In this document: positions 21,005 to 30,526 of the stretch, piece after piece
How the letters are laid out: each line of letters opens with the position of its first letter
Position numbering within the stretch: position 1 is the stretch's first letter
DNA from: Flavimaricola sp.
GTDB taxonomy: Bacteria > Pseudomonadota > Alphaproteobacteria > Rhodobacterales > Rhodobacteraceae
Assembly: GCA_029255105.1 (NCBI GenBank)
Contig: JAQWWH010000010.1
Location: 1 to 64,000 of the forward strand
DNA: 64,000 bases
Direction of reading: 5' to 3'
Notes under the pieces: generated by a model
The model's database searches: none
What the model was told of the DNA's origin: nothing
What the model saw: the letters and a program-made list of their open reading frames with translations, nothing else
Program-made: the position numbers and the translations under genes

Positions 21005-21108
21005 CATCTGCATTTTCAGCGCTATTTTCCCCCGGATTTGATTTGAAATTGCACTTCCGGTCGTTAACGCTATGGTCGAACGCTGAAATCATTGTTCCGG
21101 AACTTTCC

Positions 21109-21951
21109 ATGTTTTTTCAAAGCCGCGCCGCGACTCGCTTTGCTCGTTCTGCCGCATTTCTGTTGATACTCGGGACATTGGCGGCCTGCGGTGGGGGGGC
21201 GGTTGTGGTGGAAGAAGAGATCATCAACGGCGTTCCGGTTAGCCAGATTGATCCCGATTATGGGATTTTGCCAGATGGTGAGTACACCTTGCCTCCGGTG
21301 CCACCCGAATACATTGCCGGGGTAAACCGTCGGATGCTCTTGCCTTATACGGGGGACGAACAGCCGGGCACGATCGAAGTCGATCCGCACGCCAAGTTCC
21401 TTTACTGGATCATGGAGGATGGCATGGCCTGGCGCTATCCTATCGCCGTTGGGAGGCAAGGGCTTTCCATGCGTGGCACCTCGATCATTCGTCGCAAGGC
21501 CGAATGGCCGGGCTGGATGCCAACCGCAAATATGCTTCGACGCGAGCCCGAGATTTATGAACCCTTCCGCGGCGGGGTTCCGGGCGGCCTTGCCAGCCCG
21601 CTGGGGTCGCGCGCGCTCTACCTCTATCGGGGCGGCCGGGATACCTTTTATCGGATCCACGGTACCAACGACCTTTCCTCGATCGGGAACTCTGGATCGG
21701 CCGGCTGCATCCGAATGTTCAATCATGACGTCATCGACCTCTACGAACGGGTCCCCCTTGAGACCCGCGTTGTCGTGCGGACCTATGAGGATTCGGTCCG
21801 GATCGAAGGCGAAGAGCTTGCGAACCGAGGGGTGGAATTGCCGCCCTTTTATGTTTCGCCCGAGGAACTGCTGCACAATGGATCTGGCGGCGTAGCGGCA
21901 GATCAGGGCGGGATAATTCCGGACGATACAGTTGAACTTTTCGATAGTTGA
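21109..21951 (+). CDS. L,D-transpeptidase (YkuD domain) lipoprotein
   Basis: A 280-residue exported protein. The ATG at 21109 is preferred over 21043 because it puts a standard lipoprotein signal first: FARSAAFLLILGTLAAC, with the lipobox LAAC, followed by GGG. The YkuD catalytic motif is HGTNDLSSIGNSGSAGCIRM, with the nucleophilic Cys, near residue 205. The core includes TIEVDPHAKFLYWIMEDG and YPIAVGRQGLSM. Family members cross-link peptidoglycan 3-3 or attach proteins to it, acting in the periplasm. A short acidic C-terminal tail follows. It appears monocistronic. Confidence 0.92.
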   Translation: MFFQSRAATRFARSAAFLLILGTLAACGGGAVVVEEEIINGVPVSQIDPDYGILPDGEYTLPPVPPEYIAGVNRRMLLPYTGDEQPGTIEVDPHAKFLYWIMEDGMAWRYPIAVGRQGLSMRGTSIIRRKAEWPGWMPTANMLRREPEIYEPFRGGVPGGLASPLGSRALYLYRGGRDTFYRIHGTNDLSSIGNSGSAGCIRMFNHDVIDLYERVPLETRVVVRTYEDSVRIEGEELANRGVELPPFYVSPEELLHNGSGGVAADQGGIIPDDTVELFDS

Positions 21952-22216
21952 TCGGCATCCATGAACCTGATGGGCAACAGCAGCCCGTCAGGCCAACGGA
22001 TTAGTTGATTCTTGCGGGACTTGGCCGCTATTTCTGGACAGTTCTTGCAAGCTGACGGGACTGTTTCCCGGGGCTGACCGCACAAGCCCCAATTTTGTCC
22101 AAATTCAGACACCTGACAGCCATTTTCTTGGTTCGGGCGACCTGCTGAGCTACTATTTAGCCATTCATTGGGCCACTTGGCCAAACGTATATTTCTTGTT
22201 TTTTGGGAACTGTTTT

Positions 22217-22855
22217 ATGCAAAAGTTTTTCGTGCGCTTGATCCGTTTGTCGGCTGCCCTTTGCGCGACCACCTCTCTTCTGGCCTGTAACACGACAACG
22301 ATGAGCCAGACCAACAATCTGAACAATGGCCAACCTTCAGGCCCGTCACCCATAGACGACCGGATCAACGGACAGATTGCTGATTTTGACGCAATGGTGC
22401 ATCGCCTTGAGAATGGCGGCTTTCCCTTGGACAGCGATGTTCCCGACACAGGACATGTGACCTACACGGGCTTTGGTGCGATCTACATCGATGGGCATCC
22501 TGACGACGGCTACCTCATCGGCGACGCCGAAGTGCGGGCCGATTTTGTCAGCTACGCCTTTGAGGGCGAGGTGACAGATATGGCTGGAACAGTGAATGGT
22601 CAGGCCTCAGTCGCCTGGAACGGCACGCTTGAGCTGTCAGGCGAAGTTGGACTTACTCATACGGCGGGCCTCGAAGGAACCGTCAACGGGTCCTTGTCGG
22701 CTGGATCGGATCACCTGTCGATCCATGGCCCGATCTCTGGGTTCTTCCAGGGTTCGCCTGTGACCGGCCTGTCGATCCGGACGGCTGACGGTGTGACAAC
22801 AATCCTGAACGGTGAAAATGTATCCGGCTCTGTCGCCGTGATCGCAGAACACTAA
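22217..22855 (+). CDS. Putative lipoprotein with transferrin-binding-protein-like beta-barrel
   Basis: A 212-residue protein; the ATG at 22217 begins MQKFFVRLIRLSAALCATTS and reaches the lipobox LLAC, so it is probably an outer-membrane or surface lipoprotein. After a Thr/Asn/Gln-rich spacer, the second half is a series of short beta hairpins with alternating Gly (TGFGAIYIDG, GTVNGQASVAWNG, LEGTVNGSLSAG) ending in HGPISGFFQGSPVTGL. That resembles the C-lobe barrel of TbpB/factor-H-binding-like lipoproteins common in alphaproteobacteria. The similarity is judged by pattern only. The ligand is unknown. Confidence 0.65.
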   Translation: MQKFFVRLIRLSAALCATTSLLACNTTTMSQTNNLNNGQPSGPSPIDDRINGQIADFDAMVHRLENGGFPLDSDVPDTGHVTYTGFGAIYIDGHPDDGYLIGDAEVRADFVSYAFEGEVTDMAGTVNGQASVAWNGTLELSGEVGLTHTAGLEGTVNGSLSAGSDHLSIHGPISGFFQGSPVTGLSIRTADGVTTILNGENVSGSVAVIAEH

Positions 22856-23277: not shown

Positions 23278-23408
23278 CAGAGGGAGGCGAATGATAAGCC
23301 GTTGCCTGCATTGCGGCCCTTCAACCTAATTTCGCCTTTCCGCCAGCTTCATATCCGCGCTATCCTTCCCATATAGCTAGGTAACGATGTTCAGCAAAAG
23401 GACGGAAA

Positions 23409-24491
23409 ATGGCCGATTTTGATGCCCAGATTCGGGAAAGCCAAGACCAGGTCGCCGAAGCGCAAAGCAAGATCGCGGAATTGACAAGCCGGATCGAAGT
23501 CGCCCGTCAGAAGATGGCCGACGGGACGGATGTGAGTATTGATATCGAGAATGCGACACTGACCGATGTCCATGCTCATACCGACCTGATGAATGCCAAT
23601 ATCGCAGAGCTGATCATGGGCCTTGACGATGTGACGGCCGCGTTCTCAAAAGACTTTGACGAAATGCGGAACAAGACCGGCTGGGAAAGCTTTGTTGGCA
23701 TTTTCTCTTCTGCCCGTTCAGATGCAATGCGCGAAGAAAGAATGCGCATGGCGACGATAGACGACAAGTTGCAGGACCTGATTTCCAAGTCCGACATCAT
23801 CGTCCGCCTGCTGGACAGCCAGCTCGCCCTGCTGAACGACCAGAAGGCCAAGGTAGAGACCAACCTCACCGGCACGCTCGAAGAGCGTGAAGCAACCGTT
23901 GGCAGCCTCGAGTCGGTGCGGGCAGAGGTATTGGGGATGGACCCCAAGATCATCGAGCTTGAGAACAAGATTGCCGTCGAACAGGATGCCGCCGCCCGGA
24001 CCAAGCTTGAGACCGATCTGGCCGCCCTGAACACCCGCTATAACGAGCTGGTACAGCAAGAGCAGGTAATGCTGGCCAAAAGCCAGACGCTGGAACGCTA
24101 TATCGAGAAGGGTAAGACCTGGATCGACAGCCTGCAAAACCAGGCAGCAACACAGATGGTCCTGATCAACAAGCTGCAGACAGATACCAAGCAGCGTGTT
24201 GTGCTTTATGATGCGCTGTCCAAATCGCTCAAGACCGCCCAGCAGCAGGACGTTGCCCACCGCATCAACGAGATCGGGGTCCAGACCGATCAGGAGGCGC
24301 AGACTGCCATGGCCGCTATTGGCGCAGCCACCAACAGCCGGATGGCGGATATGCTCGAAGCACACGAAGACCACATGGTCTTTGCCCGCGAGGTGCTTGA
24401 GCAGAAGGCCAAGGCAGACGAGCGGTTCATGCGCCGGTTCTCCAAGATTGTGGAGAAGCATGACAAGAACCTATATGGGGCAGGCGAGTGA
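23409..24491 (+). CDS. TelA-like coiled-coil protein
   Basis: A 360-residue, almost wholly helical protein with long heptad-like stretches from residue 1 to about 345 (for example QIRESQDQVAEAQSKIAEL and NKIAVEQDAAARTKLETDL). The central part, GWESFVGIFSSARSDAMR, then LQDLISKSDIIVRLLDSQLA, and the C-terminal QEAQTAMAAIGAATNSRM resemble the TelA/toxic-anion-resistance family. No signal peptide or membrane helix is present, so it is probably cytoplasmic or peripheral. It is the first gene of the eight-gene cluster ending at 30526 and overlaps the next by four bases (GTGA). Direct involvement in tellurite resistance is not established for this branch. Confidence 0.65.
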   Translation: MADFDAQIRESQDQVAEAQSKIAELTSRIEVARQKMADGTDVSIDIENATLTDVHAHTDLMNANIAELIMGLDDVTAAFSKDFDEMRNKTGWESFVGIFSSARSDAMREERMRMATIDDKLQDLISKSDIIVRLLDSQLALLNDQKAKVETNLTGTLEEREATVGSLESVRAEVLGMDPKIIELENKIAVEQDAAARTKLETDLAALNTRYNELVQQEQVMLAKSQTLERYIEKGKTWIDSLQNQAATQMVLINKLQTDTKQRVVLYDALSKSLKTAQQQDVAHRINEIGVQTDQEAQTAMAAIGAATNSRMADMLEAHEDHMVFAREVLEQKAKADERFMRRFSKIVEKHDKNLYGAGE

Positions 24492-24700
24492 TCCTGAACC
24501 GAACGGCGATCATCGGACGTCCGTCGTCCTGGCCCAACTTCTGGGTACAGGCGGCGATCTTCGGTGGCGGAACGGTGGTGTATATCAAGCAGGGGCTGCC
24601 TTTCGCCCCGCTTGTTGCCCTTGTCGTAGGGCTAAGCCTTGCCGAAGGGGCCTCTCGCCTCGTGCGGACCCCTGACGAGAGCGATCATGGCGACAAGTGA
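24488..24700 (+). CDS. Small membrane protein of the TelA/AAA cluster
   Basis: Seventy residues, starting with GTG at 24488 that overlaps the stop of the TelA-like gene. Two hydrophobic stretches (NFWVQAAIFGGGTVVYI and FAPLVALVVGLSLAEGA) flank a short loop, as in a helical hairpin with a charged C-terminus (RLVRTPDESDHGDK). Its end overlaps the start of the next gene by 14 bases. No family is recognised. Its coupling on both sides argues that it is a genuine membrane subunit of the cluster. Confidence 0.75.
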   Translation: MILNRTAIIGRPSSWPNFWVQAAIFGGGTVVYIKQGLPFAPLVALVVGLSLAEGASRLVRTPDESDHGDK

Positions 24701-25808
24701 GCTGTCGCTTGACCATTTCAAGCTCGAGGACACCCGTGTAACCCGGCGCTATTTTGGCAAGTTCGACAAGATCACCGGCCACCTTGGCAGGGTCGCCGCT
24801 ACGATGGAGGCCGAAGGCCGCCTGTCACGGCCCGAGGTCGAGGCGCTGGCCCGTTACCTCGTGGGCCTTGGCCTGACCTTCCGCGCCCTAGCCCACAAAT
24901 ACCATTTTTCGGGCCGGTTCACCCATGCTGGCAAATTGACATTTGACCGGGTCGAAAGCGGTTTCCCGGTCTTTTCCGAGCTTATGGAAATGGCCAACGA
25001 TGCGTTACAGGCTCCGGGCCATCTGGCGTCAATGCCTTCGGTTTCGGCCCTCAAGGACGACATGGTGCGCTCAATCGTGGGTGAGCAGGCCATCCCTACC
25101 AAGCTGCAATATGCCCTCAGCCAGCGGCTTTATTATCAGGAACTGGTCAAGGGGGGGCTGTTCTGGGGCCGCAACGACCCCGAGGTGATCTGGTTGGGCA
25201 ACAGCGGTGTCCGCAGGCGCTACCTGATCCGCTGGGCGGTCTACGACAGCGCCGTCAACCTTCCGGTCATCTATCTGATGGAAGTCGAGGACACAGGCCG
25301 CACCGGTCTGCCCAAGGACGAAAAGCGCTGGCCCGAGGCGCAGGCCCATCTCATGGCGCAGGCGCTGGGCGGGCTGAAGCTATTGACCATTGCCACCGGC
25401 TTTGATCGGGATTTCGACGATCTGCACCCGACGCGGCTGCGCCGGTTTCACATTGGCCCGATGTATTCCCATGCATTCACCCAGCAACTTGGCCCGATCC
25501 GCGATGTTCTTGCCAGCGCAAAGGCACCCGTGGGAGAGGATTGGGCCCTTGTCTGGACCGAGGAAGACCTGGTCAGCGAGAGGGTTGAAAAGGAACGCTC
25601 TGGCTGGTTCGGCACGGTCGAGCGGCAGATATTTGCCCTGGATCCCTTTGCAAATAAGGGGATCGAGACAGGTGCAACACGGTTGGAGCGGTCGATCATT
25701 CTGCCAGAACGGCCCTATCAGGCCCTCGCCGAACTGAATCCACCGGGGTTTCACGACGTGCGCAAATTCGTGGTCAACGATCAGGGGCGCGTGCTGAGTT
25801 ACAGGTAA
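24687..25808 (+). CDS. Conserved protein of unknown function (373 aa) in the TelA/AAA cluster
   Basis: The ATG at 24687 (MATSELSLDHF) is preferred over 24639. The protein is soluble, mixed alpha/beta, with no signal peptide or membrane helix. I do not recognise a family. Notable segments are LARYLVGLGLTFRALAHKYH, the run LSQRLYYQELVKGGLFWGR, LIRWAVYDSAVNLPVIYLME, and WALVWTEEDLVSERVEKERS. It is coupled to the membrane hairpin gene upstream and precedes the AAA+ ATPase. Its TAA stop (25806-25808) lies inside the palindromic repeat at 25805-25830, so the repeat supplies the end of the gene. Confidence 0.8.
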   Translation: MATSELSLDHFKLEDTRVTRRYFGKFDKITGHLGRVAATMEAEGRLSRPEVEALARYLVGLGLTFRALAHKYHFSGRFTHAGKLTFDRVESGFPVFSELMEMANDALQAPGHLASMPSVSALKDDMVRSIVGEQAIPTKLQYALSQRLYYQELVKGGLFWGRNDPEVIWLGNSGVRRRYLIRWAVYDSAVNLPVIYLMEVEDTGRTGLPKDEKRWPEAQAHLMAQALGGLKLLTIATGFDRDFDDLHPTRLRRFHIGPMYSHAFTQQLGPIRDVLASAKAPVGEDWALVWTEEDLVSERVEKERSGWFGTVERQIFALDPFANKGIETGATRLERSIILPERPYQALAELNPPGFHDVRKFVVNDQGRVLSYR

Positions 25809-25830
25809 GGTGGGTCATGACCCACCTTAC
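25805..25830. repeat. 26-bp palindromic repeat, copy 2, overlapping a stop codon
   Basis: An identical copy of the 18703 palindrome, inside an operon between the 373-aa gene and the AAA+ gene. A half-copy (TTAAGGTGGGTTC) follows at 25847-25859. The stop codon of the upstream gene is the TAA of GTAAGG. Confidence 0.9.
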
Positions 25831-25888
25831 GAACGAGTGAATGTATTAAGGTGGGTTCCGAGCCGCCGCCAGGAAAACGGAAGATGCG

Positions 25889-27835
25889 ATGAGCCAGACA
25901 AGCGATCAGATGGAACTGCGCGAGGAAGACATTCGCAAGCATTACGCAGCGGCCCTTGCGATGCTGGAAGGATTTGATCACGCCCCCCGGATCGCATCGG
26001 CAGAGCGCGCGCCAGCCCCTGAACGGTCGCCTGGCGTCGGGACCCGGCGTGCCTTTCGCTCAACCACGCCGGGACTCGTCACGCGCCGTCAGGTCCGTCC
26101 CGAAGGGGTCCAGCTTTTGCCTCGGATCGAGGGGGGCAATGGTGGCGAAGGACTGGTGACGCCGGTTGAGGCCGCGGTGCAATCGGCCCTGCGCCGGGCG
26201 GTCGCCATCGCCCTCGCCGTGGGTGAGCAATACTCTGATCTGACCGGTCTGGCTGACCTCAAACGCTCTAACCTTGCCGGGGCTCTGGCGCAGGACAAGC
26301 GTGCGGCGTTTTCCGAGATGCTGACCGCCGAGGCGCTCGTCACCCTTTATACTTTTGCCAATGCGACGGCGTTCCTGCTGGCGAGCCACGCGGGCGAAGA
26401 TTCGGTCGAGATTGGCGATGTCGAAGAGGTGCTGACCGAAAACGGCCAGCTTGCCCTGCACGGCGCCCTTTGGGAGCTTGATCAGGACATCGCCGCCTTT
26501 GCCACCACCGAACCCCGTCTGGTCGCGACAGTGTTGGCCTTTGCAGAGGCCCTGATGACCAAGGTCGCCGGCCGCGCCGCCAATGCGCCCAGGCTGGAGC
26601 CCTTTGTCGCCGCCCATTGGAAGGTCGAGGCCGATGGCCTCAACATCGAAGGGTTCACACCCGCCCGCAAGGCCCGCGGTTCCGCCCTGACCATGACCTT
26701 CAAGAAGCCCCACGAAGTTGTGGGCAACCATATTGCCAAGTATCAGGCGCTGCGTCTGGCCAAGATGCTGATGGCCTATGATTTCGACCGCCGGATGAAC
26801 CCCTTTGCCGAACTTGGCGGCTTTATCTTTACCTTCATGGGCGATGGCGCGCCGGGCACTGGTAAGACGACGCTGATCCAAATGATGGCGGGCCTGATCA
26901 ACGACTACTGTCAGGTCGCAGGCTATGTGTTTCGCTACCAGAACCTGTCGACTGACAATATCGACAGCTATCAGGGCAAGTCGGGCCAGAACGCCCGCGC
27001 CTTTATCGACAGCATCATTGATCCTGGTGTTATCGGCTTTGGCACCATCGACGATATCGACACGCTGGCCGGTAAGCGGGGCGACCGGCAATCCAGTGCT
27101 GGCCAGCTTGAGATTACGGCGGTCTTGATGGATGCCTTTGCCGGGGCCAATACGGTGGTCCGGGGCAATTGCACCTTTGGCATGTTCTCAAACTATCCTG
27201 AAAACGTTGACGATGCCCTGCGCCAGCGGGCCGGAGCCCGGTTCCTCGTCGATGGCCCGCAAACGCGCGACGACTATATCGACATTCTTAGCCTGCTTTT
27301 GGGCAAAAAGCATGACATCCCGCTTGGCGAACACGAACTCTTTGCCGCGCAGGAGATCAAAAAGGCTGTCGCCGCCAGCTTTGAAAGCCACAACCGCCCC
27401 AAAGAGGACGGACTGATCAGGGTCTATGAGCGGGTCAGCCGTGATATCGGTAAGCTTGATACGATCGCCAAGCTGGGGACCTACCTCAAGGGCATACAAG
27501 AGGCCGATCCCCGCTTTACCGGTCGGGCGATCAAGAACATCACCGATGCGGTGAAAGTGCGCGCGATGGACTTTGAATTGCCTGACGAGTGGATGGAAAA
27601 CCCCGAGCTTTTCCTTTTCAAGGACTACGAAACCAAATTCAGCATGATCGAGAGTCTGCGCAAACCGATCACCGTCGAAATGGTCATCCAGGAAATCAAC
27701 CGCTACGCCGATAGCGAATTCCGTTATGCGGACAAGTCCGACGAAGTGGCCATCGAGAACATGGTCCGTGACTTTGGCCGCAGCGAAGAGGCCAAGCGGC
27801 GCTATGTCGCCCAGAAGGCGCAGGGCGATGGCTGA
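25889..27835 (+). CDS. Large AAA+ ATPase with novel N-terminal half
   Basis: A 648-residue protein. Residues about 280-500 are the AAA+ core: Walker A GDGAPGTGKTT at 318-328, Walker B region GFGTIDDID around 383-391, and an arginine-finger candidate in DDALRQRAGARFLVDGP. The first about 280 residues have no recognised fold; an Arg/Pro-rich stretch at 35-70 precedes a helical region (EAAVQSALRRAVAIALAVG). The C-terminus after DGLIRVYERVSRDIGKLD is helical. It overlaps the next gene by 8 bases. It is probably the energy-coupling component of the cluster, remodelling one of the partner proteins; that role is inference. Confidence 0.88.
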   Translation: MSQTSDQMELREEDIRKHYAAALAMLEGFDHAPRIASAERAPAPERSPGVGTRRAFRSTTPGLVTRRQVRPEGVQLLPRIEGGNGGEGLVTPVEAAVQSALRRAVAIALAVGEQYSDLTGLADLKRSNLAGALAQDKRAAFSEMLTAEALVTLYTFANATAFLLASHAGEDSVEIGDVEEVLTENGQLALHGALWELDQDIAAFATTEPRLVATVLAFAEALMTKVAGRAANAPRLEPFVAAHWKVEADGLNIEGFTPARKARGSALTMTFKKPHEVVGNHIAKYQALRLAKMLMAYDFDRRMNPFAELGGFIFTFMGDGAPGTGKTTLIQMMAGLINDYCQVAGYVFRYQNLSTDNIDSYQGKSGQNARAFIDSIIDPGVIGFGTIDDIDTLAGKRGDRQSSAGQLEITAVLMDAFAGANTVVRGNCTFGMFSNYPENVDDALRQRAGARFLVDGPQTRDDYIDILSLLLGKKHDIPLGEHELFAAQEIKKAVAASFESHNRPKEDGLIRVYERVSRDIGKLDTIAKLGTYLKGIQEADPRFTGRAIKNITDAVKVRAMDFELPDEWMENPELFLFKDYETKFSMIESLRKPITVEMVIQEINRYADSEFRYADKSDEVAIENMVRDFGRSEEAKRRYVAQKAQGDG

Positions 27836-28160
27836 GGGGCTGATTGTCCCGGCGTTGGTGCTGGCGATGGTGGGCTGGCTGGTGCCGCGTGGCCTGAGCC
27901 TGGTGTTTCCCGAAGGCGTCCGGCCCCTGATGATCCTCGCCTTTGTGGCCACACTGGTCATGCTGGCGCTGGGGACGGGGTTCTTCTTTTTGCTCTATGT
28001 CCTGCAAGGGGTACCGATCGGCGTCCTGTTCGACGAAGGGATAGTGCCGGCAATGGCCCATTTTCTGCGCCTTGGGCTGATTTCGGCACTGTTGTGGGGC
28101 CCAATCATGGTGCTTTCCCTGTCCGGCCTGCCTAAGTTCTGGGTGACTGAGAAATGGTAA
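27828..28160 (+). CDS. Small three-helix membrane protein of the TelA/AAA cluster
   Basis: 110 residues from the ATG at 27828, which overlaps the AAA+ stop; the longer frame from 27726 would lie inside the ATPase gene. Hydrophobic segments are LIVPALVLAMVGWLVPRGL, LMILAFVATLVMLALGTGFFFLLYVL (listed here as two parts, LMILAFVATLVMLALG and TGFFFLLYVL) and HFLRLGLISALLWGPIMVL. It has no recognised family. The coupling to the ATPase suggests it anchors or receives it at the inner membrane. Confidence 0.8.
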   Translation: MAEGLIVPALVLAMVGWLVPRGLSLVFPEGVRPLMILAFVATLVMLALGTGFFFLLYVLQGVPIGVLFDEGIVPAMAHFLRLGLISALLWGPIMVLSLSGLPKFWVTEKW

Positions 28161-28212
28161 TATGGTGCCATACGCCGCAGTATGATCTGACGGTGTGGTC
28201 GGAGGGGGCAAC

Positions 28213-29607
28213 ATGCGCCGATTGATCGAAAAGGGGCTGATGTTCGGCAACCTCATCCGGGTCGATTCCCCGGTTCTGGTTGAGCGGTACAACCGTGCGC
28301 TCAAGGCGCTGACGGGCAAAGAGACCGATCTGACCGAGTTTCACATCGACATTTCAGGCTTTTCGCCCGAGGTGGGCGATGCCTTCAACGATGACCGCTA
28401 CCTCAATCAGGAAGGGGTGAACCGTCAGTTCATCCTTCTGACCACGGACCAGCGGACTGCCCCCCTGCTTAACGCCTCGTTCTCGACTTCGCGGGGCATT
28501 CTGCGTCAGTTCATCAATGATAACCTTCCCCAGCTTTTTGCCCTGACGACCCGCGACGCGGTGGCGGGTGAGCTGGTGAATTCGGTCTATACGGTCGAAA
28601 CACCTGCCCGGCTGTTCGACATCCGCAAGATCACGGTCGAGTCTGATACAACGACGGGCACCGTTGCGACCGCGAAAAAGCTGGGGGCGATGATCGAGCG
28701 CTTCAAAACGGAAGAGAACGCCTGGTGGGACGACGTGCTGATTGGACAGATGATCGGTCTGGCCAAGGAAACCGGCGATCTGACCCGTAATCCGGTGCGG
28801 CTGTCTGAAATGACCTTTGCCCAGGACAATTTCTGGACCTCTCATTTCGGCGGCATCTATATGTTTCGAGGGGTGGCGAGCCCCGCCTTGATTGCGGCAG
28901 AGGGCAAGGCCGATCTTGGCACCTTGCCCATCGCGCAGGTGCTGGATTTTTCGGACCGTTCCGCGATTGCGCGGTTCCTGCAGGACAACGAACTGGCGGA
29001 GCCGATCGTGAAGGTCCGTGGCATCGACGCCGCCGCGATCCTGCACCAGAAGATGGACTTTGTGGTAGCGGAACTGGCTGGGGTCATGGGCGAAAACCTT
29101 GAAGGGGCAAGCCGGCGCGACCTGCGCCTTTTGGGTCGCCGCTACGCCCAGCTCCTTCCGCCCGAGTGGAAGGGCCTTGCGGCGCTGGCCCGCTGGGCCG
29201 AGGAAGATGGTGCCTGGCCCAGCATCGACAGCGACCACCCGGCCTACTTCTACACATTGCGCGCCCGCGACGTGCCCGACGCCGATCTGGTCAACATGCT
29301 TCTGGCCGAGCTTTCGCCCCTGGATATCCGGCAATTGTTCATCTGCCACAAAGAGGCGTTCTACCGCGCCTATGCAGGCTGGCCCGAGGCCAAACAGGCC
29401 TATGTCGCTGACTTTCTGGCCAGCGAATATATGGTGGACAAGGCAGGGACCCGGGCTGCCCTTTTCGGGCACGAGGCACCGATGACCGAACCCGGCGGCG
29501 CGGCTGCCTCGCCCTGGGGCGGAACCAGAAACGGAACCGGAGGCGGTGCCCAGTCCGATGCCGTGATCGAACGGGTCGGCCCTTGGGGCGCAGTGAGAAG
29601 GAGTTAG
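28213..29607 (+). CDS. DUF6638 family protein
   Basis: A 464-residue soluble protein beginning MRRLIEKGLMFGNLIRVDSP, which matches the start of the DUF6638 family. A GTG at 28195 is possible, but GGAGGGGG lies just before the ATG at 28213. It contains HIDISGFSPEVGDAFNDD, TSRGILRQFINDNLPQLFAL and LSPLDIRQLFICHKEAFYRA. The C-terminal about 40 residues are a Gly/Ala-rich tail. No catalytic motif is recognisable. It follows the small membrane protein by 52 bases and is separated by only three bases from the next gene, so it belongs to the same operon. Confidence 0.82.
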   Translation: MRRLIEKGLMFGNLIRVDSPVLVERYNRALKALTGKETDLTEFHIDISGFSPEVGDAFNDDRYLNQEGVNRQFILLTTDQRTAPLLNASFSTSRGILRQFINDNLPQLFALTTRDAVAGELVNSVYTVETPARLFDIRKITVESDTTTGTVATAKKLGAMIERFKTEENAWWDDVLIGQMIGLAKETGDLTRNPVRLSEMTFAQDNFWTSHFGGIYMFRGVASPALIAAEGKADLGTLPIAQVLDFSDRSAIARFLQDNELAEPIVKVRGIDAAAILHQKMDFVVAELAGVMGENLEGASRRDLRLLGRRYAQLLPPEWKGLAALARWAEEDGAWPSIDSDHPAYFYTLRARDVPDADLVNMLLAELSPLDIRQLFICHKEAFYRAYAGWPEAKQAYVADFLASEYMVDKAGTRAALFGHEAPMTEPGGAAASPWGGTRNGTGGGAQSDAVIERVGPWGAVRRS

Positions 29608-29610
29608 ACG

Positions 29611-29874
29611 ATGGGCGTGATCCGGCTGTTCTTCATGGCCTTCGTGGTGCTGAGCGTGATCTACGTCAGCGTTTCGCTTTATTCCCGCGCCGTGCGGAAG
29701 GGCAAGCTTGAGACCGCCTGGCTGGAAGAGGGGGCCAATGGCGACAAGGACGCCTATGTCCGGGCCGGGTTGAAAGACTACGACAGTTCGCTGCGTCGTC
29801 GCCTTATCCTTGGCGTCTATGTGATCCCCATGGTGATCGTGGGGACAATCCTTTATCTGGTAAACTACACCTGA
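29611..29874 (+). CDS. Small two-helix membrane protein of the TelA/AAA cluster
   Basis: 87 residues with a membrane helix at each end (VIRLFFMAFVVLSVIYVSVS and LILGVYVIPMVIVGTILYLV) and a central charged loop of about 40 residues (RAVRKGKLETAWLEEG, then DKDAYVRAGLKDYDSSLRRR). The loop is predicted to face the cytoplasm by the positive-inside rule. It lies three bases after DUF6638 and 31 before DUF1523. No known family is recognised, but the composition and the tight spacing support a real gene. Confidence 0.8.
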   Translation: MGVIRLFFMAFVVLSVIYVSVSLYSRAVRKGKLETAWLEEGANGDKDAYVRAGLKDYDSSLRRRLILGVYVIPMVIVGTILYLVNYT

Positions 29875-29905
29875 TCCACTCACAGCCGACGGAGGGCCCG
29901 GCCCC

Positions 29906-30526
29906 ATGACCTATATAAAATGGACCTTCCGGTTGCTCGTGCTGGCGTTGCTTGCAGCCTTCCTGTCCTACGTCTTGCCCCAGCGCGATATCGTGAGGGT
30001 GGTTTCGACCGAAGTGATCCGCACCGATTTCACCGCCTACAACCGCCTGTTCTATGCCCAGGCCGACAGCGGCAGTGCCGAGGCTGCCACCCGCGATCTG
30101 CGCCTGATCAACACCGTTCGATACAATGGCAGGGTGATGGTCTATCGCAACGAGGATACGGGCTGGATCTGGCCGCCTTATTTCAAGTTCGACAGCTCTG
30201 ACCTGCAGGCCGAGGCCGAGGATCTGACCTCGACGACCGACGTGCCGCGCTGGGCGGTCGTCACCCATTACGGCTGGCGGATCCGTTACCTTACGGTCTA
30301 TCCCAACGCCATCGACATCCGCCCGGTCGCCGACCCCGAGGCTCGGATGATCCCCTGGTTCAACATCATCTTCCTGACCGTTCTCTTTGCCATCGGTTGG
30401 GCGGTCACCGTTCGCTGGCGGCGGTTCCGGGCCCGGCGTATCCAGCCCCGGCTGGACCAGATCGACAGCGCCATCGGGGAACAGCGGGCTGGCATTTCGC
30501 GCTGGTTCCGCAGCTGGCGGCGATAG
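29906..30526 (+). CDS. DUF1523 family membrane protein
   Basis: A 206-residue protein with an N-terminal helix (RLLVLALLAAFLSYVLPQRD), an extracytoplasmic domain of about 110 residues and a second helix near 155-175 (FNIIFLTVLFAIGWAVTVRW), ending in a basic cytoplasmic tail. DUF1523 signatures are VYRNEDTGWIWPPYFKFDS, LQAEAEDL and WAVVTHYGWRIRYLT, followed by YPNAIDIRPV. The family is widespread in Rhodobacterales and has no known function. It closes the eight-gene set. The next gene is convergent. Confidence 0.88.
   Translation: MTYIKWTFRLLVLALLAAFLSYVLPQRDIVRVVSTEVIRTDFTAYNRLFYAQADSGSAEAATRDLRLINTVRYNGRVMVYRNEDTGWIWPPYFKFDSSDLQAEAEDLTSTTDVPRWAVVTHYGWRIRYLTVYPNAIDIRPVADPEARMIPWFNIIFLTVLFAIGWAVTVRWRRFRARRIQPRLDQIDSAIGEQRAGISRWFRSWRR

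Follow-up and report, generated by a model that had tools for sequence, protein, structure and literature searches.

Organization of the operon

The window analysed here is a stretch of 64,000 nucleotides (nt) from Flavimaricola sp., a member of the Rhodobacteraceae (contig JAQWWH010000010.1, positions 1 to 64,000), and it carries at 23409-30526, on the plus strand, eight open reading frames (ORFs) of which four constitute a conserved core: those encoding a coiled-coil protein, a 373-residue protein (p373), an AAA+ ATPase, and a protein of DUF (domain of unknown function) 6638. An original prediction, made from the DNA letters alone, had described these eight genes as a candidate undescribed system joined by overlaps or short gaps. 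The ORFs were confirmed, with intergenic distances, in order, of -4, -14, +80, -8, +52, +3 and +31 nt (Table 1); the overlapping or nearly overlapping arrangement argues for a single transcript. A sigma-70 scan found no consensus promoter, and a CC(C/T)(A/T)TAT-like element at ~23375-23385, seen by eye at the same distance before core gene 1 in numerous roseobacter loci, is a candidate for a single operon promoter.

Table 1. Genes of the operon in the window (aa, amino acids; TM, transmembrane segment)
Gene and product	Position	Strand	Basis
Core gene 1, all-helical coiled-coil protein, 360 aa	23409-24491	+	
Variable slot 1, small hydrophobic 70-aa protein, GTG start	24488-24700	+	
Core gene 2, p373 (373 aa), no Pfam family	24687-25808	+	confident AlphaFold model
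Core gene 3, classical AAA+ ATPase, 648 aa	25889-27835	+	PF00004
Variable slot 2, 110-aa membrane protein, 4 TM	27828-28160	+	hydropathy
Core gene 4, DUF6638, 464 aa, soluble	28213-29607	+	PF20343
Usual accessory, 87-aa 2-TM protein, charged loop	29611-29874	+	hydropathy
Usual accessory, DUF1523, 206 aa, ~125-aa domain flanked by TM near each end	29906-30526	+	PF07509

Pfam leaves the labels DUF6638 (E=2e-223, 742.5 bits, over cut-off) and DUF1523 (E=5e-67, 225 bits) certain. The coiled-coil, 70-, 373-, 110- and 87-aa proteins have no Pfam family above cut-off: the 110-aa and 87-aa proteins drew chance-level matches only (E=0.6 and 0.26, respectively), and the 373-aa and 70-aa proteins no family match. 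Searches of NCBIfam, PADLOC and PHROGs with the operon proteins returned matches at the level of the AAA domain, of coiled coils or of chance. Hydropathy bears out the predicted membrane character of the 110-aa (four TM), 87-aa (two) and DUF1523 (two) proteins; the membrane hairpin proposed for the 70-aa protein is weak, with a single segment scoring 1.61.

A collinear four-gene core

Loci for comparison were obtained by searching named genomes with p373 (34 loci) and were extended with further loci from a phylum-wide sample. In each of the 42 loci that have all four core genes, these are collinear and on the same strand, in the order coiled-coil protein, p373, AAA and DUF6638. Among 398 Pseudomonadota genomes, p373 and DUF6638 each occur in 26, the two sets of genomes being identical, and the coiled-coil protein occurs in the same 26 and three others. 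With order kept in 42/42 loci and the same 26 genomes shared, the outcome that stood to undermine the prediction, namely genes scattered in relatives, did not arise. Pairwise distances of the four core proteins also co-vary (r 0.94-0.97 overall and 0.54-0.73 in 27 close loci), as expected for a unit inherited together. The core is found in Rhodobacterales, Stappiaceae, Hellea-type metagenome-assembled genomes (MAGs), Rhizobiaceae (S. meliloti) and Vibrio megaplasmids; in Stappiaceae, several Hellea-type MAGs and one Rhodospirillales MAG, the core genes overlap or lie no more than ~30 nt apart in most loci. Within the family of the window itself, p373 is present in 63 of 149 genera (42%). The host genome has a single copy of the ATPase, a protein whose mean pairwise distance across families is 0.31.

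The four core genes are passed on together in one order, small membrane proteins usually accompanying them, and the operon is a previously undescribed chromosomal system with a known kind of motor at its base. In this respect the prediction of an undescribed, conserved cluster of an AAA+ ATPase and membrane proteins was borne out; its extent was not, since eight genes had been taken as the unit. Accompanying the core in the 42 loci are DUF1523 (37/42) and the 87-aa protein (35/42), and the remaining two genes are variable: the 110-aa family occurs in 15/42 and sequence relatives of the 70-aa protein in 0/42. No mention of DUF6638 was found in the literature searched, in which DUF1523 has passing mentions in four papers; the four-gene set is absent from the systems described in the accessible part of a survey of bacterial PspA/ESCRT-like systems (PMC11237479), and nothing closer was found in the literature searched.

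We also considered the operon as a replacement for PspA and set the idea aside: among 149 Rhodobacteraceae genomes, 15 of the 25 with PspA also have the operon (Fisher p=0.07).

Two variable slots

The variable genes occupy two positions. Slot 1, between the coiled-coil gene and p373, holds in many roseobacter loci a small protein, mostly of 66-125 aa, with two hydrophobic segments and no common sequence, and the 70-aa protein of the window belongs here. Slot 2, between AAA and DUF6638, often holds a 3-4-TM protein, including the 110-aa family, and otherwise unrelated genes: HEPN/DUF4145-like (three loci), a putative AbiC/AbiP protein, DUF5677, DUF3825 and, in S. meliloti, a DUF559 endonuclease. 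Small TM proteins make up the majority of slot contents and recur in both slots. The 70-aa and 110-aa membrane proteins are therefore the exchangeable part of the system. This reverses the predicted arrangement, in which these membrane proteins were anchors and the TelA-like (here, coiled-coil) protein and DUF6638 were peripheral parts: the latter two belong to the invariant core.

Several individual slots and junctions deserve record (given as our locus identifiers with coordinates). Homologous proteins of 237-241 aa lie in the AAA-DUF6638 gap of three genomes (L014:12132-12845; L085:7103-7816; L086:5063-5788, minus strand); with HEPN-like motifs of the R-x4-H type and weak DUF4145/CARF-HEPN matches, they are candidates for a recurrent cargo or partner. 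A toxin-antitoxin-like pair, by eye RHH-like and RelE/ParE-like, occupies the coiled-coil/p373 gap at L020:8456-9008, the other gap of that locus (slot 2) holding the putative AbiC. In S. meliloti Ak57, an IS4-like element (ISRm16; L119:13981-15144) splits the operon between the AAA/DUF559 genes and DUF6638.

Properties of the core proteins

A single classical AAA domain (PF00004, residues 320-453, 42.9 bits against a cut-off of 21.2) was found in the ATPase, whose first ~310 residues match no Pfam domain, MIT included, in agreement with the novel N-terminal half noted originally. Its solved relatives comprise the i-AAA protease, proteasomal Rpt subunits, a VCP-like ATPase, katanin, Vps4 and fidgetin-like proteins. 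Walker A is intact in 52/53 ATPases compared, and sensor-1 N and a sensor-2-like GR are present in 53/53; the protein is a member of the classical AAA clade, and its P-loop is intact. Walker B reads IDD or VDD in 53/53, likewise in Vibrio, an aspartate replacing the glutamate (D-D for D-E). Single members of the family are weakly similar in NCBIfam to CbbX, SpoVK, EccA, CDC48 and proteasomal ATPases, and PADLOC gives weak matches to TRIP13 (E=3.6e-6) and IetA. A ChvI-binding fragment of S. meliloti SMc02733 (PMC3687685) may lie in this ATPase gene, a location guessed from locus numbering.

No solved relative was found for p373 or DUF6638. The AlphaFold model of p373 is confident (pLDDT 89.4, pTM 0.88), with a helical N-terminal half and a beta/alpha C-terminal half; a Foldseek search of the PDB gave nothing significant (best E=0.7). 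With a second aligner, residues 173-336 returned mostly proteins of the T-fold (urate oxidase, dihydroneopterin aldolase, GTP cyclohydrolase, QueF) at Z values of at most 4.6, below the level the tool treats as meaningful; the modelled resemblance may reflect a common arrangement only and is offered as a lead. Two other candidate relationships were discarded: a top match of p373 in a viral structure library (E=0.009) has a TM-score of 0.10 and is meaningless, and an early match of DUF6638 to the thermosome (E=0.015) disappeared with a deeper profile.

The model of the coiled-coil protein consists of long helices only (pLDDT 69, best at residues 120-250), and its structural matches are generic helical bundles, with no ESCRT-III or PspA among the matches listed. 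The coiled-coil nature originally assigned to it stands, and the label TelA-like falls. The window protein does not match PF05816 in Pfam at E<=1 or E<=10; this family is absent from the 25 listed for 21 homologues; and hhalign comparison of its profile with that of 25 TelA proteins gave a probability of 2.9%, comparable searches giving 4.5% for the coiled-coil protein against PspA and 4.2% for TelA against PspA. A true TelA (365 bits) is encoded elsewhere in the same genome, adjoining a gene that, from reading its sequence by eye, we take to be XpaC-like. Neither PF04012 (PspA_IM30) nor PF03357 (Snf7) is among the Pfam matches of the window protein at E<=10, Snf7 having been compared by Pfam alone, and no phage homologues of the protein were found.

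A MIM1-like tail that accompanies the ATPase

MIM1 is the motif by which ESCRT-III tails bind Vps4, and we examined its occurrence because the ATPase resembles Vps4-type proteins. Its consensus is D/ExxLxxRLxxL[K/R] (PMC11998489), with Leu-to-Ile substitutions in archaeal examples (PMC7240154). A relaxed pattern, scoring D/E, R and three hydrophobic positions, was found near the C-terminus in 49/49 operon-linked homologues of the coiled-coil protein. In the window protein the MIM1-like motif spans residues 337-347 (window 24417-24449), and among 21 diverse homologues, extending from Rhodobacterales to Vibrio, 20 have it at 20-28 residues from the end. The same pattern was present in the last 40 residues of 4/528 control proteins, in 0/25 TelA tails and in 0/15 PspA tails. 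It is absent from 4/4 coiled-coil homologues of Rhizobium-type loci without the ATPase; in whole-genome searches of three of these four genomes, this ATPase family, p373 and DUF6638 were all unmatched. Among these proteins, all those encoded with the ATPase gene retain the C-terminal motif, and it is changed in the clade that lacks this gene.

The four Rhizobium-type loci (L120, L142, L143 and L144) retain the diverged coiled-coil gene alone. In L120 it sits between thymidine kinase and DUF2333, the site at which S. meliloti (L119) has the whole core; the lone gene is a candidate remnant after loss of the ATPase, or may encode a repurposed protein.

A proposed membrane-remodelling cycle

Vps4 remodels ESCRT-III, and by analogy we tentatively propose, at somewhat below even odds, that the coiled-coil protein is gripped by its MIM1-like tail and remodelled by the AAA+ ATPase at the inner membrane. 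The four-gene core would then form one ATP-driven machine on the cytoplasmic face of that membrane. The coiled-coil protein would assemble on or near the membrane, as substrate or polymer, and its C-terminal tail would provide the handle for the N-terminal half of the ATPase to hold, the AAA hexamer serving as a motor that extracts or disassembles it in cycles. Obligate adaptors or a scaffold of this cycle might be supplied by p373 and DUF6638, and a membrane side made up of DUF1523, the 87-aa protein and the slot proteins could position the machine at the membrane or sense the envelope. The most likely of the putative physiological roles is envelope upkeep or stress. Remodelling of a membrane-bound complex by the ATPase, as first suggested, is retained as a proposal, and the association of the MIM1-like tail with the ATPase gene suggests that its substrate is the coiled-coil protein.

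Several points weigh against this proposal. The MIM1 match has F/F/I in place of leucines and is missing the final K/R, and a shuffled tail yields the relaxed pattern in 1% of cases; the tail could be an amphipathic helix serving other contacts. The homologues behind the MIM1 counts are non-independent, and the four without the ATPase are a single Rhizobiaceae clade in which the tail is wholly changed, so that they count as one event; L120, the one aligned, also lacks ~22 other residues near 271-292. With D-D in Walker B, as read from sequence, hydrolysis may be slow or absent. Pfam recognised no MIT domain in the ATPase, and neither profile comparison nor the fold-search matches listed gave a significant link to ESCRT-III or PspA.

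Like ESCRT-III/Vps4 (archaeal CdvB/CdvC), the operon combines a classical AAA protein, whose PF00004 domain with P-loop scores over cut-off and has Vps4 among its solved relatives, with an all-helical soluble partner bearing a C-terminal MIM1-like motif, and membrane proteins are nearby. Unlike that system, it has a partner without detectable ESCRT-III homology, an ATPase in which no MIT domain was recognised, additional core proteins in p373 and DUF6638, and a Walker B in which the catalytic glutamate (DE) of Vps4 is missing throughout. The likeness is at most an analogy, homology of the filament partner being undetectable. PspA with AAA+ and membrane partners has been proposed as ESCRT-like, and is comparable as a bacterial coiled-coil protein in such company, but the operon protein has no detectable PspA homology, and p373 and DUF6638 are not among the PspA partners named in the accessible part of that account (PMC11237479). 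A wider formulation is a bacterial filament-and-motor system of membrane remodelling that arose independently of ESCRT-III/PspA, in which the C-terminal tail of a non-homologous helical filament became, by convergence, a MIM1-like handle for a classical AAA ATPase, with two new soluble folds and exchangeable membrane adaptors; we consider this unlikely.

Alternative explanations

The AAA+ ATPase might instead act as a chaperone in the assembly or activation of some membrane or metabolic complex, in the manner of CbbX, SpoVK and EccA in their own systems; p373 or DUF6638 would be its client or adaptor, and the coiled-coil protein would be structural, a subunit rather than a dismantled polymer. 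To this explanation, the main rival, which we rate as possible though on the unlikely side, belong the weak NCBIfam similarities of single members to those three chaperones, the Walker B D-D, which suggests a slow, regulatory ATPase, and the weak likeness of the p373 C-terminal half to the T-fold of oligomeric purine/pterin enzymes. The T-fold Z values, however, are under the meaningful level; no enzyme or secretion complex adjoins the operon in all lineages; and the tail motif, lost without the ATPase, suggests that the coiled-coil protein is the partner on which the ATPase directly acts.

A system of anti-phage defence or inter-bacterial conflict, with an AAA+ core and exchangeable effectors in the two slots, would accommodate the patchy presence of the operon within family and phylum, the HEPN/DUF4145-like, AbiC/AbiP, DUF5677 and DUF3825 contents of slot 2, and the weak TRIP13 and IetA matches. 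Similarity to these defence ATPases is nevertheless confined to the AAA domain, and the operon has no recognised HORMA or protease partner; no PADLOC system was matched, hits being AAA-level or weak coiled-coil ones with p373, DUF6638 and DUF1523 unmatched. Slots hold mostly small TM proteins, the core proteins are highly conserved, the coiled-coil protein has no phage homologue, and genomic position is often kept: 11 loci share an upstream L,D-transpeptidase gene, and 18 have the same dehydrogenase gene close by. We regard defence as improbable.

A TelA-type tellurite/toxic-anion or colicin-related locus is very improbable: similar size, long helical coiled-coil content and a 138-column alignment of the two C-terminal halves, co-linear yet insignificant, are set against the unmatched PF05816, the motif-free TelA tails, the genuine TelA with its XpaC-like neighbour elsewhere and a stretch in which no tellurite genes were seen, so that the tellurite and colicin associations drawn originally from the TelA label are unsupported.

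Significance and flanking genes

Four genes of undefined function are kept in order across several lineages, among them many Proteobacteria of marine and soil habitats, and in 42% of sampled genera of the window's family. Were the ATPase to act on the coiled-coil tail, as we tentatively propose, the operon would parallel the Vps4 cycle in bacteria with unrelated parts, and would directly test whether motors and tails of this sort arose repeatedly. Failing a Vps4-like mechanism, three protein families with no assigned function still gain concrete partners and a testable docking motif.

Upstream of the operon, the gene at window 21043-21951 encodes what we take, from its HGT...SxGCIRM motif, to be an L,D-transpeptidase-like lipoprotein; in the 11 relatives, its homologue has the same direction as the operon and lies mostly within 90-150 nt of it. 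Between this gene and the operon, 22196-22855 encodes a probable lipoprotein of 219 aa, whose match to Slam-dependent surface lipoproteins (NF041636, E=1.8e-5) falls below the threshold.

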